Assembly: GCA_002010725.1 (NCBI GenBank)
Contig: MTOP01000056.1
Location: forward strand, 40,774 to 83,510
DNA from: Candidatus Aminicenantes bacterium JdFR-80
GTDB lineage: Bacteria; Acidobacteriota; Aminicenantia; Aminicenantales; Aminicenantaceae
DNA length: 42,737 bases
Direction of reading: 5' to 3'
In this document: in pieces, positions 7,750-42,577 of the stretch
How positions within the stretch are numbered: the stretch's first letter is position 1
Layout: each line of letters starts with the position of its first letter
The notes under the pieces: generated by a model
Databases searched by the model: none
What the model was told of the DNA's origin: nothing
The model's input: only the letters and a program-made list of their open reading frames with translations
Program-made: the position numbers and the translations under genes

Positions 7750-8043
7750 ATGGCTTTACCAAGCAAGATAATCTTAAAACACCCAAGTGGTCAAGGGTGG
7801 CCTTCATTTGATTGGCTGATTAAAAAGGGGACAAGGCTAAAGAAGGATTTAAAGGAAGAGATTAGGTGGTTGTATCAGGTTGGTTGTTCTCATGTAAAGA
7901 AGTTTTTAGAGAGCCACCCTGAATATAAATACTTGGGTTCTGAGGATTTAGGGCATATTCCCGAAGTAAATGAAGGTGTTCGAGAGTTTATAGAGAGATG
8001 TAAAAAAGATGGGTTTGAGATTATAGAAGAGAAAATGTTATGA
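7750..8043 (+). CDS. Hypothetical protein preceding radical SAM gene
   Basis: A 97-residue protein, MALPSKIILKHPSGQGWPSF at the start, mostly charged and helical. ATG 7750 is chosen because AGGGGGG lies at 7737-7743; the in-frame ATG at 7714 would lie inside the HNH gene. It is coupled by ATGA to the radical SAM gene, so the two may act together. No family recognised. Confidence 0.65.
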   Translation: MALPSKIILKHPSGQGWPSFDWLIKKGTRLKKDLKEEIRWLYQVGCSHVKKFLESHPEYKYLGSEDLGHIPEVNEGVREFIERCKKDGFEIIEEKML

Positions 8044-8849
8044 AAATAGCAAGGGTTTTTCCCACGCAAACCTCAATGAGCCCTGTTGATCCAGATTCTT
8101 ATTTTGGTCCTCCAGATTTATTTACACCCCCATATGATGAAATTCATATAAGCGTTGTTTTTACTTGGGATTTACCAAGAGCACAACAGCTTAAAGCCCA
8201 ATGGGAACATATTGCACCAGTCAAAATTGGTGGGCCTGCTATTCATGGTGAACCAAAAGATGGATTTAAGGCTGGTATGTATTTATGCAAGGGGGTTACC
8301 ATAACCTCAAGGGGTTGTCCAAACAAATGCCCGTGGTGTTTTGTAAATTGTGATCTTATCGAATTGGATGATTTCCCCGAGGGCAATATTATTCAAGATA
8401 ATAATATTCTGGCCTGTTCAAAGCCACACCTGGAAAAAGTTTTTCAGATGCTTTCTAAACAGAGGGGTATTGATTTTAGGGGGGGATTAGATTCAAGGCT
8501 TCTCAAAGATTGGCATATTGAGAAACTAAGAGGATTAAGAATTAAGGCGCTTTGGCTTGCTTACGATCACCCAGCAACTAGAACTTATTTTATCAAGGCG
8601 ATTACAAAGTTAAAAAAATATTTCAGGCGTGATCAATTGCGTTGTTATGTCTTAATTGGATTCGGGAAAGATACGATAGAAGAGGCCGAAGCAAGATTAA
8701 AATTTGTTTGGGATGTGGGAGCTCTTCCTTTTGCTATGCTTTATCGTAACGGGCGGGGGGATTACCCATCTCCAACTTCAGAATGGAAAAGATTACAACG
8801 AAAATGGGCAAGACCTGCTATTTACAAATCTTTTTTCAAAGAGGACTAA
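8040..8849 (+). CDS. Radical SAM protein
   Basis: A 269-residue protein with the radical-SAM cluster motif TSRGCPNKCPWC (C93, C97, C100; CxxxCxxC) that binds a [4Fe-4S] cluster and S-adenosylmethionine. The first 90 residues (HISVVFTWDLPRAQQ, then KIGGPAIHG) resemble the cobalamin-binding-like lead-in of the Elp3/MiaB/NifB-type superfamily. Downstream, RGGLDSRLL and CYVLIGFG fit the partial TIM barrel. It is short for the family and lacks an evident auxiliary cluster domain. The substrate is unknown. Nucleotide or tRNA modification, or protein modification, are possibilities. It is coupled to the gene before it. Confidence 0.8.
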   Translation: MKIARVFPTQTSMSPVDPDSYFGPPDLFTPPYDEIHISVVFTWDLPRAQQLKAQWEHIAPVKIGGPAIHGEPKDGFKAGMYLCKGVTITSRGCPNKCPWCFVNCDLIELDDFPEGNIIQDNNILACSKPHLEKVFQMLSKQRGIDFRGGLDSRLLKDWHIEKLRGLRIKALWLAYDHPATRTYFIKAITKLKKYFRRDQLRCYVLIGFGKDTIEEAEARLKFVWDVGALPFAMLYRNGRGDYPSPTSEWKRLQRKWARPAIYKSFFKED

Positions 8850-11307: not shown

Positions 11308-11507
11308 GTGGCCTAATCCTCATCAGGTGTGTGGAGAATGGGTATTTGGTTGAATTTCCCCAGCCAACAAGAAGAACTGTTTGGAGGAGAAAGGTTATTT
11401 GTAGGAATGATGATGAGGTGAAAGAGCTTATAAACGAAGCCCTTGCTAATGTTAAGGCTCTAGAAAGGACTATCAGACAAATGGAGGGAACACAATGGGT
11501 AAAATAA
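11304..11507 (+). CDS. Hypothetical early protein
   Basis: A 67-residue basic protein, beta-rich start (ILIRCVENGYLVEF) and helical end (LINEALANVKALERTIRQME). Coupled by ATGA to the previous gene. No family recognised. Confidence 0.6.
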   Translation: MSGLILIRCVENGYLVEFPQPTRRTVWRRKVICRNDDEVKELINEALANVKALERTIRQMEGTQWVK

Positions 11508-11746
11508 TTCGATATAAACATCATGGAAGGATGGTTTATGTAGATGAAGATTTAAAAGGCAAACATAGGGAATATTGTCTATGTTTCCGTTGTGCGAAAT
11601 TTCACCCCGAAGATGGGGTGAAGAATTGTTCAATTGCTAACCTGAATTATGCAATGGACGTTTTACTAAACGTGGTAACTCCAGTGTGGGAATGTCCCAG
11701 GTTTGAAGAAAAACCTCCGCTTAAGGTAAAAAGAGGGCATCCGTGA
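11495..11746 (+). CDS. Cys-rich small protein overlapping the structured RNA
   Basis: An 83-residue protein with CLCFRCAKFHPE, a lone C in KNCSIAN and WECPRFE near the end, a likely metal site common in small phage proteins. The last four codons (GHP and stop) also form the 5' strand of the closing stem of the structured segment at 11735-11871, so translation would compete with folding of that RNA. Confidence 0.65.
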   Translation: MGKIIRYKHHGRMVYVDEDLKGKHREYCLCFRCAKFHPEDGVKNCSIANLNYAMDVLLNVVTPVWECPRFEEKPPLKVKRGHP

Positions 11747-11871
11747 CTGAACAACGGGGTTCTGGCGGTTTCCCCGTAAGGTGCGGGGGACGTGTATTTT
11801 GGTCCCCGGCTGGGGGTTATATCGACAAAAACCGCTACCCCCTTGCAGGTAACCAATCCTGCCGGGTGCCC
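11735..11871 (+). ncRNA. Novel structured RNA candidate with kissing loops
   Basis: This 137-nt segment is about 60% G+C by hand count, in an operon near 40%, and has no reading frame. It folds into a closed multibranch form. P1 pairs 11735-11743 with 11863-11871 (9 bp, one G-U). P2 pairs 11754-11759 with 11772-11777. P3 pairs 11783-11791 with 11802-11810, with one G-G mismatch. P4 pairs 11812-11817 with 11837-11842. P5 pairs 11845-11849 with 11858-11862. The 12-nt P2 loop (11764-11771, GGCGGTTT) is complementary over 8 bases to the P4 loop (11829-11836, AAACCGCT), a loop-loop pseudoknot. It ends 30 bases before the next start codon and has no U-tract. It could be a free phage RNA, a ribozyme or a cis-regulator of the next gene. 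I recognise no known class. Confidence 0.6.
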
Positions 11872-11901
11872 TTCATAAAGATCTAAAAATTAGGGGGAAC
11901 A

Positions 11902-12330
11902 ATGCAATCGGGGTTTGAGTTGATAAAACCAGGAAAGGGAAAAAGGGTCAAATTTAATATGGTAACAATATCTCCTGTCTTGCTTACGTTCAATAGACAC
12001 GTGGTAGAAAAAATGAATCTTTCACGCCAGAGAAATGTAATGCTGTTCTATAATCCCAAGCTAAAGATAATAGCAATAAAACCATCTCCGGTTGAAACAG
12101 AAAATACATATAGGGTTTTTGTTAATAAGAATAGAAATGCATCTCTAACAGTAAGGGGGTTTTTAAAAACCACTGGCTTGATTGTCACGTTGGGGTTCCT
12201 CAAAAACAAAGAGTCTAAACGTTTCAGAGCTGTTTGGAGTTACAAGGAAAAGGTTCTTTATGTTCCTTTAACATCAGAAGCCTTTAAAAAACTTTCTGTA
12301 TTAGAGGAGGAAGAAAAGACAGATGAGTGA
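11902..12330 (+). CDS. Hypothetical protein downstream of structured RNA
   Basis: A 142-residue protein, beta-rich (VKFNMVTISPVLLTFNRHVV, then VMLFYNPKLKIIAIKP). Related small proteins are seen in phages without known function. If the structured RNA acts in cis, this is the gene it would control. Start ATG follows AGGGGGAAC. Confidence 0.65.
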   Translation: MQSGFELIKPGKGKRVKFNMVTISPVLLTFNRHVVEKMNLSRQRNVMLFYNPKLKIIAIKPSPVETENTYRVFVNKNRNASLTVRGFLKTTGLIVTLGFLKNKESKRFRAVWSYKEKVLYVPLTSEAFKKLSVLEEEEKTDE

Positions 12331-28924: not shown

Positions 28925-29382
28925 TCCGCTCCCTCATGTAATTTTGGGCTGTATCTTGGGATAATCAAAAAGCCTAAATCGAAATGAACAAATGTTTTTC
29001 CTTTGTCTAAATATCTCTTCCATCCTATTCTCGGTCGGATATCTACTTTCCTCAAAATCTCAACCGCCCTTTTAACTTCAGAGACAGAATTAAAGTCAAC
29101 ATCCAAAGCAAGTCCAAAAACGTGGACCGACCAATAGGTGGAAGAGATCTTGTTCATCACCAATTCTTTTTGGTGATCTAAACACCTGTAACCACTGGTA
29201 ATAATCGGCCAATAACCCAGCTCATCTGCCAATCTTTCATAAACCCTAAAAAGAACTGAGAACTCATAGTTGATAATTGTTTCGCCGTCATCTCCAATAT
29301 CATAGAGATCAGGTGGCAATTTCCCACAATGCGGGCACTTATATCGCCTTAAAATATCCTTCATCCTCTTTTCGTCAATCAT
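28918..29382 (-). CDS. Endolysin, peptidase M15 family
   Basis: A 154-residue L,D- or D,D-peptidase. SGYR at 63-66, SVHVFGLALDVDF (H87, D94) and FVHFD (H133) provide the zinc-binding H, D, H of M15/VanY-type enzymes that cut peptidoglycan cross-links. A CPHCGK motif at 16-21 in the N-terminal extension may bind another metal. There is no signal peptide, so it needs the adjacent holin. Confidence 0.88.
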   Translation of the reverse strand: MIDEKRMKDILRRYKCPHCGKLPPDLYDIGDDGETIINYEFSVLFRVYERLADELGYWPIITSGYRCLDHQKELVMNKISSTYWSVHVFGLALDVDFNSVSEVKRAVEILRKVDIRPRIGWKRYLDKGKTFVHFDLGFLIIPRYSPKLHEGAEW

Positions 29383-30743
29383 GTCTGCCTCTCCCTGATT
29401 ATTTCTCTGACGGCTCTTTCAATCGCTCTTAACTCCGGCTCCTTGTTTAGCTCAAAGCTGACACCATATTTACGACACTCTTCTCTTGTGAGTCCCTCAA
29501 GGGCTGATTTTCTCCATGTTGCAATATTGGGAATGGTTGTGCTCCTTACCCAGGCAGCAGCGGACATGATTATCCAGCCACCACCACCATTCCGATAGTC
29601 ATAAACAAGGCCGTGATACATATCAAAGGAAGAGGGGCGCCTGAATTCCGGGTTCCAATTTTTTCCAATTAAACCGGTTCCTATAAGGCCGGCTTCATAA
29701 GTCTGGGCCCCATCTGAATCACAAACAATCCTGCGTCCAAAGGGCTTATAAAAGTATTTATAAAAATCACGGTCATGACGGTGATAGCGGATAAATGCCC
29801 AGGCGGTATTAATTCCATGATGCGAATAAAGAATCTTCTTGTATTTCTTCAGCCATTTATAACCAGCGGGATCATCGCCATCTAGCGATCTGTCTATATG
29901 CTGAACCATGATTCTCTTCTGTGGGACCTTAAGTTTCTTGGTTAAATAATCAATCATGTGATAAGTCCACTGGGTTAGCGGTTTGGGCTCAAATTCGTGT
30001 GGCTCATTAATCAGCTCCCAGATAACCAAGGGATTATCAAAGTGTTCTACCATTGCTTGGCAATAGTCCTTGAACATCGCTATAACCAGCTCATCTTCAA
30101 TAAAAGCTCTTGGTCTCGAGGGGGATTTTATATTGGAGTTTCTTCCGTTCCACATTGAGAAGTGATATCGAAAGCCCTTAATACCCGATGCAAGGCAGAT
30201 AATTGTCACAATTCCCCTTTCGTGGAAGACCCGTAATCTTCGGGACATTTCGTTAACATAGGCGGGAGAAAGAATAAGTCTTCCATTTCTGAATCTATAG
30301 ATATATCTATCGTTGCGAATCTCTAGTGGCTGAATGTATCTATAAATAGAATCTGGTCTCTCCTGACAGTAAGCAAATAAACGGATTACATTTACGCCAC
30401 GTTTCGCAGATTCTTCTCCTACAAACTCAAATCTGTTCATATTCCAATTCGTTCCATCCTGGAAGGGAATGACAAAGCCATCTAAATCCCAGGGGACATA
30501 ACCAACCATAAAGTTATAAACCGAATAAGGAAATATAGTTCTGGTAACTGATTTTTTCTTGGGTTTTTTCTTGTTTTCTTTCTTCTCTTCTTTCTGTTTA
30601 TCTTCTTTCTTTTTTTCTTCTCGCTTAACTATTTCTCTCTCATCACCGGCTTTAGAAAATGCTGTTTCTTTCTTATTGAATAATCTTTTACAGATGCCTA
30701 CAAACCTATTCCAAAGCCAAAGAATAATCTTTTTTATGCTCAT
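29379..30743 (-). CDS. GH5-like (clan GH-A) glycosidase with membrane-proximal N-terminus
   Basis: A 454-residue protein. Residues 1-25 are hydrophobic/amphipathic and could be an anchor, 30-65 are a Lys/Glu-rich linker, and about 70-450 form a TIM-barrel glycosidase. IWELINEPHE holds the acid/base Glu (E247) after the VIRLF strand, and RIMVQHIDRS and KKILYSHHG follow the barrel order. The expected nucleophile Glu is not obvious; the segment CDSDGAQT stands near its place. The gene overlaps the endolysin gene by 4 bases. It may degrade a host surface polysaccharide, on the virion or during lysis. Confidence 0.7.
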   Translation of the reverse strand: MSIKKIILWLWNRFVGICKRLFNKKETAFSKAGDEREIVKREEKKKEDKQKEEKKENKKKPKKKSVTRTIFPYSVYNFMVGYVPWDLDGFVIPFQDGTNWNMNRFEFVGEESAKRGVNVIRLFAYCQERPDSIYRYIQPLEIRNDRYIYRFRNGRLILSPAYVNEMSRRLRVFHERGIVTIICLASGIKGFRYHFSMWNGRNSNIKSPSRPRAFIEDELVIAMFKDYCQAMVEHFDNPLVIWELINEPHEFEPKPLTQWTYHMIDYLTKKLKVPQKRIMVQHIDRSLDGDDPAGYKWLKKYKKILYSHHGINTAWAFIRYHRHDRDFYKYFYKPFGRRIVCDSDGAQTYEAGLIGTGLIGKNWNPEFRRPSSFDMYHGLVYDYRNGGGGWIIMSAAAWVRSTTIPNIATWRKSALEGLTREECRKYGVSFELNKEPELRAIERAVREIIRERQT

Positions 30744-42478: not shown

Positions 42479-42516
42479 ATAAAAAAAGAGTGCCGAAGAG
42501 GGGACTCGAACCCCTA
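42479..42516. repeat. attR, 38-bp core repeat
   Basis: Exact copy of 88-125. It overlaps the 3' 26 bases of tRNA-Leu and the T7 tract after it. Here the phage-supplied sequence restores the tRNA 3' end. Confidence 0.93.
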
Positions 42517-42577
42517 CGAGCGAAATGTGCTCACTAGCCCCTCAAGCTAGCGTGTCTACCAATTCCACCACTTCGGC
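42491..42577 (-). tRNA. tRNA-Leu(GAG)
   Basis: 87 nt, class II tRNA. Acceptor stem GCCGAAG/CTTCGGC with discriminator A, D-arm with GGTAGACAC, anticodon stem CTAGC/GCTAG around TTGAGGG giving anticodon GAG, a long variable arm with GAGC/GCTC, and T-arm AGGGG/CCCCT around TTCGAGT. CCA is not encoded. It is the attachment site of the prophage. Confidence 0.95.

Follow-up and report, generated by a model that had tools for sequence, protein, structure and literature searches.

By sequence comparison, the RNA encoded on the + strand at positions 11734-11872 of the window (the whole 42,737-nt stretch of DNA analyzed here) can be assigned to the known manA family as a divergent, compact form, and we hold both this assignment and the fold described below to be very nearly certain. 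The junction core of manA probably recurs, in circularly permuted order, in the phage nanocage RNA ROOL, and the overall explanation, in which the compact manA of a tRNA-Leu-integrated prophage carries a ROOL-shared core and forms a tRNA-like autonomous domain, stands for us at about an even chance. Since 2010, manA has stood as an orphan riboswitch candidate, and we know of no function established for the ROOL RNA cages. The value of the results lies in the evidence for the manA pseudoknot, in the relation between manA and ROOL and in a testable tRNA-like core; they also extend the range of manA beyond marine cyanophages, with a compact form in a prophage. If the core is indeed shared, the solved ROOL structure could explain the manA fold and predict its key nucleotides, and the search for a function would move from metabolites to host tRNA-related machinery.

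Family membership and fold

A sequence-only reading of the segment had considered it an undescribed RNA of no known class. The Rfam manA model RF01745, however, aligns over its full length (positions 1-192 of 192) with 11717-11872 in a low-threshold Rfam scan of 301 nt (44.3 bits, E=1.9e-10), and it matches the same RNA in locus L006 with E=2.2e-8, so that the RNA is better described as a divergent, compact manA. Because the score lies below the gathering cut-off of 55.2, an ordinary whole-window Rfam scan misses it. A leave-out covariance model (R1), built from 31 aligned marine manA RNAs with the window excluded, finds 11739-11867 as its sole match in the 42.7-kb window (33.7 bits, E=1.7e-7) and returns 56.7, 46.9, 27.9, 25.0 and 24.5 bits for the divergent members L022, L005, L008, L107 and L110, respectively. 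The manA-like loci were gathered from viral contigs by sequence patterns; the pattern TAAGGTG..GGTAAYCAATCC returned mostly unrelated sequence, and blastn matched the segment to no phage or plasmid sequence. The conserved strings UGACUGAACAA, UAAGGUG and GGUA..AAUCC stand at RF01745 model positions, and the first hairpin of the Rfam model, 5' of P1, can be aligned within the upstream coding sequence with one of its six pairs non-standard. The branched P3 with inner hairpins is absent, the window P3 being a simple hairpin; this is a difference within the family, and the window RNA is therefore filed as a manA variant.

The deciding evidence for the fold, drawn from sequences, is comparative and consists of the covariance-model matches and of covariation. 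In an alignment of 34 RNAs that includes the window, 37 of 39 pairs changed on both sides, the covariation check proposed with the sequence-only reading, and 98.6% of cells pair. Cells with changes on both sides number 212, whereas shuffles give 46 and slid controls no more than 42, a large margin for an alignment that leans towards structure because it was fitted to it. The earlier claim of a structured phage RNA is thereby borne out. Thermodynamics is less telling. The folding energy on the + strand is moderate (z=-2.5 against dinucleotide shuffles), for which reason the structure was tested by comparison, and energy alone is weak evidence because the - strand folds nearly as well (z=-2.1). 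A terminal stem of at least 9 bp arises in 5 of 5000 shuffles with fixed ends. The minimum-energy fold of the single sequence differs from the manA fold, the nested minimum lying at -65.2 and the five-stem fold at -56.9 kcal/mol, to which the pseudoknot adds about -10.1 before any penalty. Chance folding of a GC-rich patch, for which the almost equal folding of the reverse complement might speak, is hardly credible and is considered refuted by the independent covariance-model matches and by covariation across phages. Readings of the locus as an antisense-strand RNA or as a stand-alone terminator were both rejected.

The five compatible stems of the sequence-only reading were all found where it had placed them, in agreement with the covariation of the relatives. 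Its closing stem, which corresponds to manA P1, exists but pairs 11734-11743 with 11863-11872 over 10 bp and not 9. Core A (UGACUGAACAA, 11744-11754) follows and includes the UGA stop of the upstream ORF (11744-11746), in keeping with the claim that the 5' strand of the closing stem overlaps the end of the upstream gene; the segment is hence not wholly non-coding, as had been supposed, its first 13 bases being the end of an 83-aa ORF, while the rest does lie between ORFs. A 3-bp helix (ACU 11746-11748 with GGU 11780-11782) connects core A to core B (UAAGGUG, 11777-11783), and between the two cores stands the P2 hairpin (11755-11776; CGGGG/CCCCG, stem 11755-11759/11772-11776, loop UUCUGGCGGUUU). 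P3 (11786-11807; GGGGAC/GUCCCC, stem 11786-11791/11802-11807) is without the side hairpins of marine manA, and P4 (11812-11842; GGGGGU/ACCCCC, stem 11812-11817/11837-11842) is interrupted on the 3' side by an internal loop. The U at 11844, immediately 5' of P5, is conserved in ROOL and in nearly all manA RNAs and would be tRNA position 48 in the register proposed below. P5 (11845-11862; GCAGG-UAACCAAU-CCUGC, stem 11845-11849/11858-11862) abuts the 3' strand of P1 (P1') and is almost identical to a ROOL hairpin. All these elements lie on the + strand.

The 8-bp complementarity reported between the loops of P2 and P4 is present exactly as claimed, GGCGGUUU (11764-11771, + strand, in the P2 loop) pairing with AAACCGCU (11829-11836, + strand). 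In Weinberg et al. 2010 (PMC2864571), the manA pseudoknot is drawn with a question mark ("pseudoknot?"), and we take the loop-loop helix of the window to be that element. The strands of the marine pseudoknot, GGCA and UGCC, are invariant and hence provide no covariation. In divergent members the strands differ and yet match, as in the window (GGCGGUUU/AAACCGCU), L022 (GAACAG/CUGUUC), L067 (UACAAUA/UAUUGUA), L005 (UAACAU/GUGUUA) and L110 (CCAAAAA/UUUUUGG). A swap test that set the P2 loop and P4 region of each of 12 members (11 divergent, 1 marine) against swapped partners gave p=0.0009 for the P4 region (last 45-60 nt) and 0.009-0.012 for the whole of P3-P4; the pseudoknot is unsupported in L004 and L021, and the partner in L067 lies farther from P5. 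The P2-loop/P4 pseudoknot is thus shown by sequence comparison to tie the manA fold together, and now has the covariation support that it had been without.

Prophage setting, genomic contexts and possible roles

The window holds a complete prophage, about 42.4 kb long, inserted in the 3' end of a tRNA-Leu gene, with a 38-bp direct repeat at both ends. The left copy of this attL/attR pair spans 88-125 and the right copy 42479-42516, the latter lying in the 3' end of tRNA-Leu(GAG) (42490-42577), and the integrase gene occupies 163-1263 on the - strand. The RNA is located in a tight, co-directional early operon, between the gene for the 83-aa protein (11495-11746, + strand), which overlaps P1 and core A, and the gene for a 142-aa protein (11902-12330, + strand), whose ATG at 11902 follows the RNA end by 30 nt. 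Sequence inspection suggests AGGGGG (11892-11897, + strand) as the probable Shine-Dalgarno sequence of the latter gene, complementary to CCCCCU (11838-11843) in P4. In 140-nt windows, GC content is about 55% at the RNA segment and 30-45% in the AT-rich vicinity. The 142-aa protein has no known relatives: none was found outside the prophage, searches yielded neither a Pfam or PHROG family nor a PDB relative above noise, and a structure prediction made without an alignment was uninformative (pLDDT 34.5). The comparison of synteny gave a mixed answer, since one related phage has the upstream gene (55% identity) but neither the RNA nor the 142-aa gene; the place of the RNA there reads, from the sequence, as a DNA methyltransferase gene, and no manA motif occurs in the record of this phage. 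Elsewhere in the prophage, a 269-aa protein of the early operon (8040-8849) has a weak, sub-threshold radical SAM match, and a 454-aa protein of the structural region (29379-30743) a weak, sub-threshold match to glycoside hydrolase family 5, on the basis of which it is perhaps a tail-associated depolymerase.

Among the manA relatives, a raw count places the RNA of 82 of 88 loci on the strand of the next ORF, a median of 83 nt upstream of it, which would also suit a cis-regulator. The genes downstream are mutually unrelated: manA precedes an SSB gene in L110 and a tRNA-Ala in L014. A manA motif is also reported from a Bifidobacterium megaplasmid that encodes a tmRNA (PMC10832533). In L005 (4939-5099) and L009 (2774-2958), manA lies on the + strand within a 456-bp gap of an otherwise minus-strand gene run and, being on the strand opposite to all its neighbors, cannot be a 5' leader. 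A 137-kb phage contig (L107) presents, on its - strand (986-1219), two tandem manA-like cores and then a convergent tail sheath gene, model R1 finding manA at 1017-1219 directly before a second copy of the core motif at 986-1017. Taken together, these contexts speak, short of proof, for an RNA that is self-contained rather than a sensor tied to one particular gene.

The mechanism that we tentatively prefer, at somewhat below an even chance, is that of an autonomous folded domain. The manA core would be read by a host factor that recognizes tRNA-like shapes, candidate readers being a tRNA-processing nuclease or the ribosome, and manA would not be a metabolite sensor for whichever gene happens to lie downstream. 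In the window, translation of the upstream gene ends inside core A, on the UGA, and a ribosome terminating there would prevent P1 and the core from closing, so that folding would have to wait until the ribosome has left; ribosome and fold are thus predicted to be mutually exclusive at this site. A role as a cis-acting element of the early operon, in which the fold governs how the 142-aa gene and later genes are translated or how stable their message is, for instance by hiding or exposing the ribosome-binding site, while ribosomes on the upstream gene gate the folding itself, is a serious possibility, if one that we doubt. It draws on the position of the RNA 30 nt before the ATG in a tight co-directional operon, on the shared strand of those 82 loci and on the predicted pairing of CCCCCU in P4 of the window with AGGGGG, and manA is judged cis-regulatory in Weinberg et al. 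2010 (PMC2864571); the downstream genes of the relatives are nonetheless unrelated, and L005, L009 and L107 offer no same-strand gene for the RNA to lead. The narrower proposal of an element specific for 11902-12330 is unsupported because the 142-aa protein lacks outside relatives and manA RNAs adjoin unrelated genes.

The same source lists manA as a probable riboswitch, and a complex, highly conserved core would suit the binding of a small ligand that switches the downstream gene. We nevertheless consider a metabolite riboswitch improbable: the neighboring genes show no consistent pathway, no expression platform was found above chance and the core probably recurs in the stand-alone RNA ROOL. 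The autonomous domain is favored over it because some relatives place manA where no leader is possible. Transcription attenuation, by which a hairpin at 11770-11790 followed by CGUGUAUUUU would act as a terminator competing with P2 and P3, is very improbable: the terminator-like pattern is present, but two such patterns were found where 1.1 are expected, its U tract is weak and the hairpin would destroy the conserved fold.

A junction core probably shared with ROOL and possibly tRNA-like

The recurrence of the manA junction core in ROOL, which we consider probable from sequence, is clearest in two of the ROOL RNAs. Matches to ROOL among the loci comprise L003 (286 bits, a pattern hit) and L049 and L050 (300-305 bits), all three found by core motifs, together with L180 and L181, which were retrieved by the Rfam ROOL model alone. 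In circular order, ROOL reads UAAGGU, P3, P4, U, P5 (GCAGG UAAUCAAU CCUGU), P1', a capped loop, P1 and GUGACUGAAUAA; in the window, UGCAGGUAACCAAUCCUGC adjoins P1' and P1 adjoins GUGACUGAACAA. The P5-P1' block UGCAGGUAAYCAAUCCUGY is common to both. At the corresponding places, ROOL P1 measures 5 bp in L003 and 7 bp in L050, and in L003, L049, L050 and L181 ACU has a 3-bp partner after AA at about position 190. The permuted core is plain to see in L003 and L050, carries an additional base next to P1 in L049 and is represented by part of its motifs only in L181, where the 12-nt core A is exact (0 of 1000 shuffles as good) and P5 differs, and in L180, where the window P5 block is matched at 16 of 19 positions (p=0.001) and core A is not kept. 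Rfam scans of the window locus gave no match to ROOL (RF03087), and the locus is without the P1-P19 layout of about 600 nt. Rfam lists no clan for manA or for ROOL, and no paper naming both was found in the literature searched, which left preprints and most subscription papers outside. The P5-like hairpin of ROOL in the RF03087 consensus seems to be one base out of register with respect to the clean 5-bp stems of L003, L049 and L050; our comparison of P5 relied on sequences and not on the printed Rfam pairing.

The fold of the manA core suggests the body of a tRNA, P1 and P5 taking the parts of acceptor and T arm, ACU/GGU that of a 3-bp D stem and P4 that of the variable arm. From the stems we presume the conserved nucleotides to correspond to tRNA positions U8, G9, a 3-bp D stem, G13, A14, A15, A21-A22, G26, U48, G53-C61, U54, A58 and Y60, with the 5-bp P5 resembling a T stem. 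Of these register nucleotides, U8, A14, R15, A21, Y48, G53-C61, U54, A58 and Y60 are in place in manA. Among 88 marine manA RNAs, U48 is found in 87, U54 in 85, A58 in 87, Y60 in 88 and G53-C61 in 87, as counted by a parser that gave a small bonus to loops UA..AAU; these five features lie outside the first and third viral search patterns and hold, with few exceptions, in divergent manA and in ROOL as well. Positions U8 to A21 cannot count as independent in the marine set because the search pattern included them, though the Rfam consensus shows them in capitals. The elbow nucleotides G18, G19, U55 and C56 (the GG/UC contact) are missing, there is neither a CCA end nor a constant 7-bp acceptor stem (P1 varying from 5 to 10 bp), and ARAGORN and the Rfam tRNA model made no call on manA RNAs. 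The conserved manA nucleotides may line up in register with the invariant core of tRNA, and the manA core may be tRNA-like. That manA and ROOL form a single phage-RNA superfamily built on one circularly permuted, tRNA-like core of class II (Leu type), probably derived from phage-carried tRNAs, with manA, an autonomous phage RNA and not a riboswitch class, as the small form and the ROOL cage as the elaborated one, is a conjecture that we think may well fail. A separate locus (L033, 6672-6809, between tRNA-Glu and tRNA-Lys) combines a 5' half resembling the D/anticodon region of tRNA-Leu with a 3' end that corresponds to the P5 of manA and ROOL and has a 7-bp stem closing it; it receives no ARAGORN or Rfam call and was considered as a possible missing link.

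Set against known systems, the window RNA is closest to manA (RF01745), with which it shares the P1-P5 layout, the abutment of P1 on P5, the P2-P4 pseudoknot, the match to the full-length model and the core strings UGACUGAA(C/U)AA, UAAGGUG and GGUA..AAUCC. It differs in the lack of a spacer between core A and P2, in a simple P3 without side hairpins, a 10-bp P1 and a ROOL-like P5 loop of 8 nt, in a score below the gathering cut-off, and in residing in a prophage not of the cyanophage type, with no adjoining mannose, nucleotide or photosynthesis gene. With ROOL (RF03087) it has in common the P5-P1' block, a P1 ending at GUGACUGAAUAA, the U before P5, the 3-bp ACU/GGU helix next to a GAAUA/AA internal loop, and an occurrence in phages or prophages, often near tRNAs. 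ROOL, however, is about 600 nt long with many more stems, has P1 capped by hairpins and P2 open, whence the circularly permuted order, and is the one of the two that is known to form an octameric cage (PMC12286853). The structural comparison with class II tRNA of the Leu type yields the same five-helix order, the 2-nt linker U-G, the 3-bp D stem, G13 A14 A15, U48 and a 5-bp T stem with G53-C61 and the loop U54..A58 N59 Y60, whereas manA, which tRNA finders do not detect, has no CCA and no evidence of an anticodon arm, carries P2 inserted in the D loop and presents a longer T loop and an acceptor-like stem of 5-10 bp.
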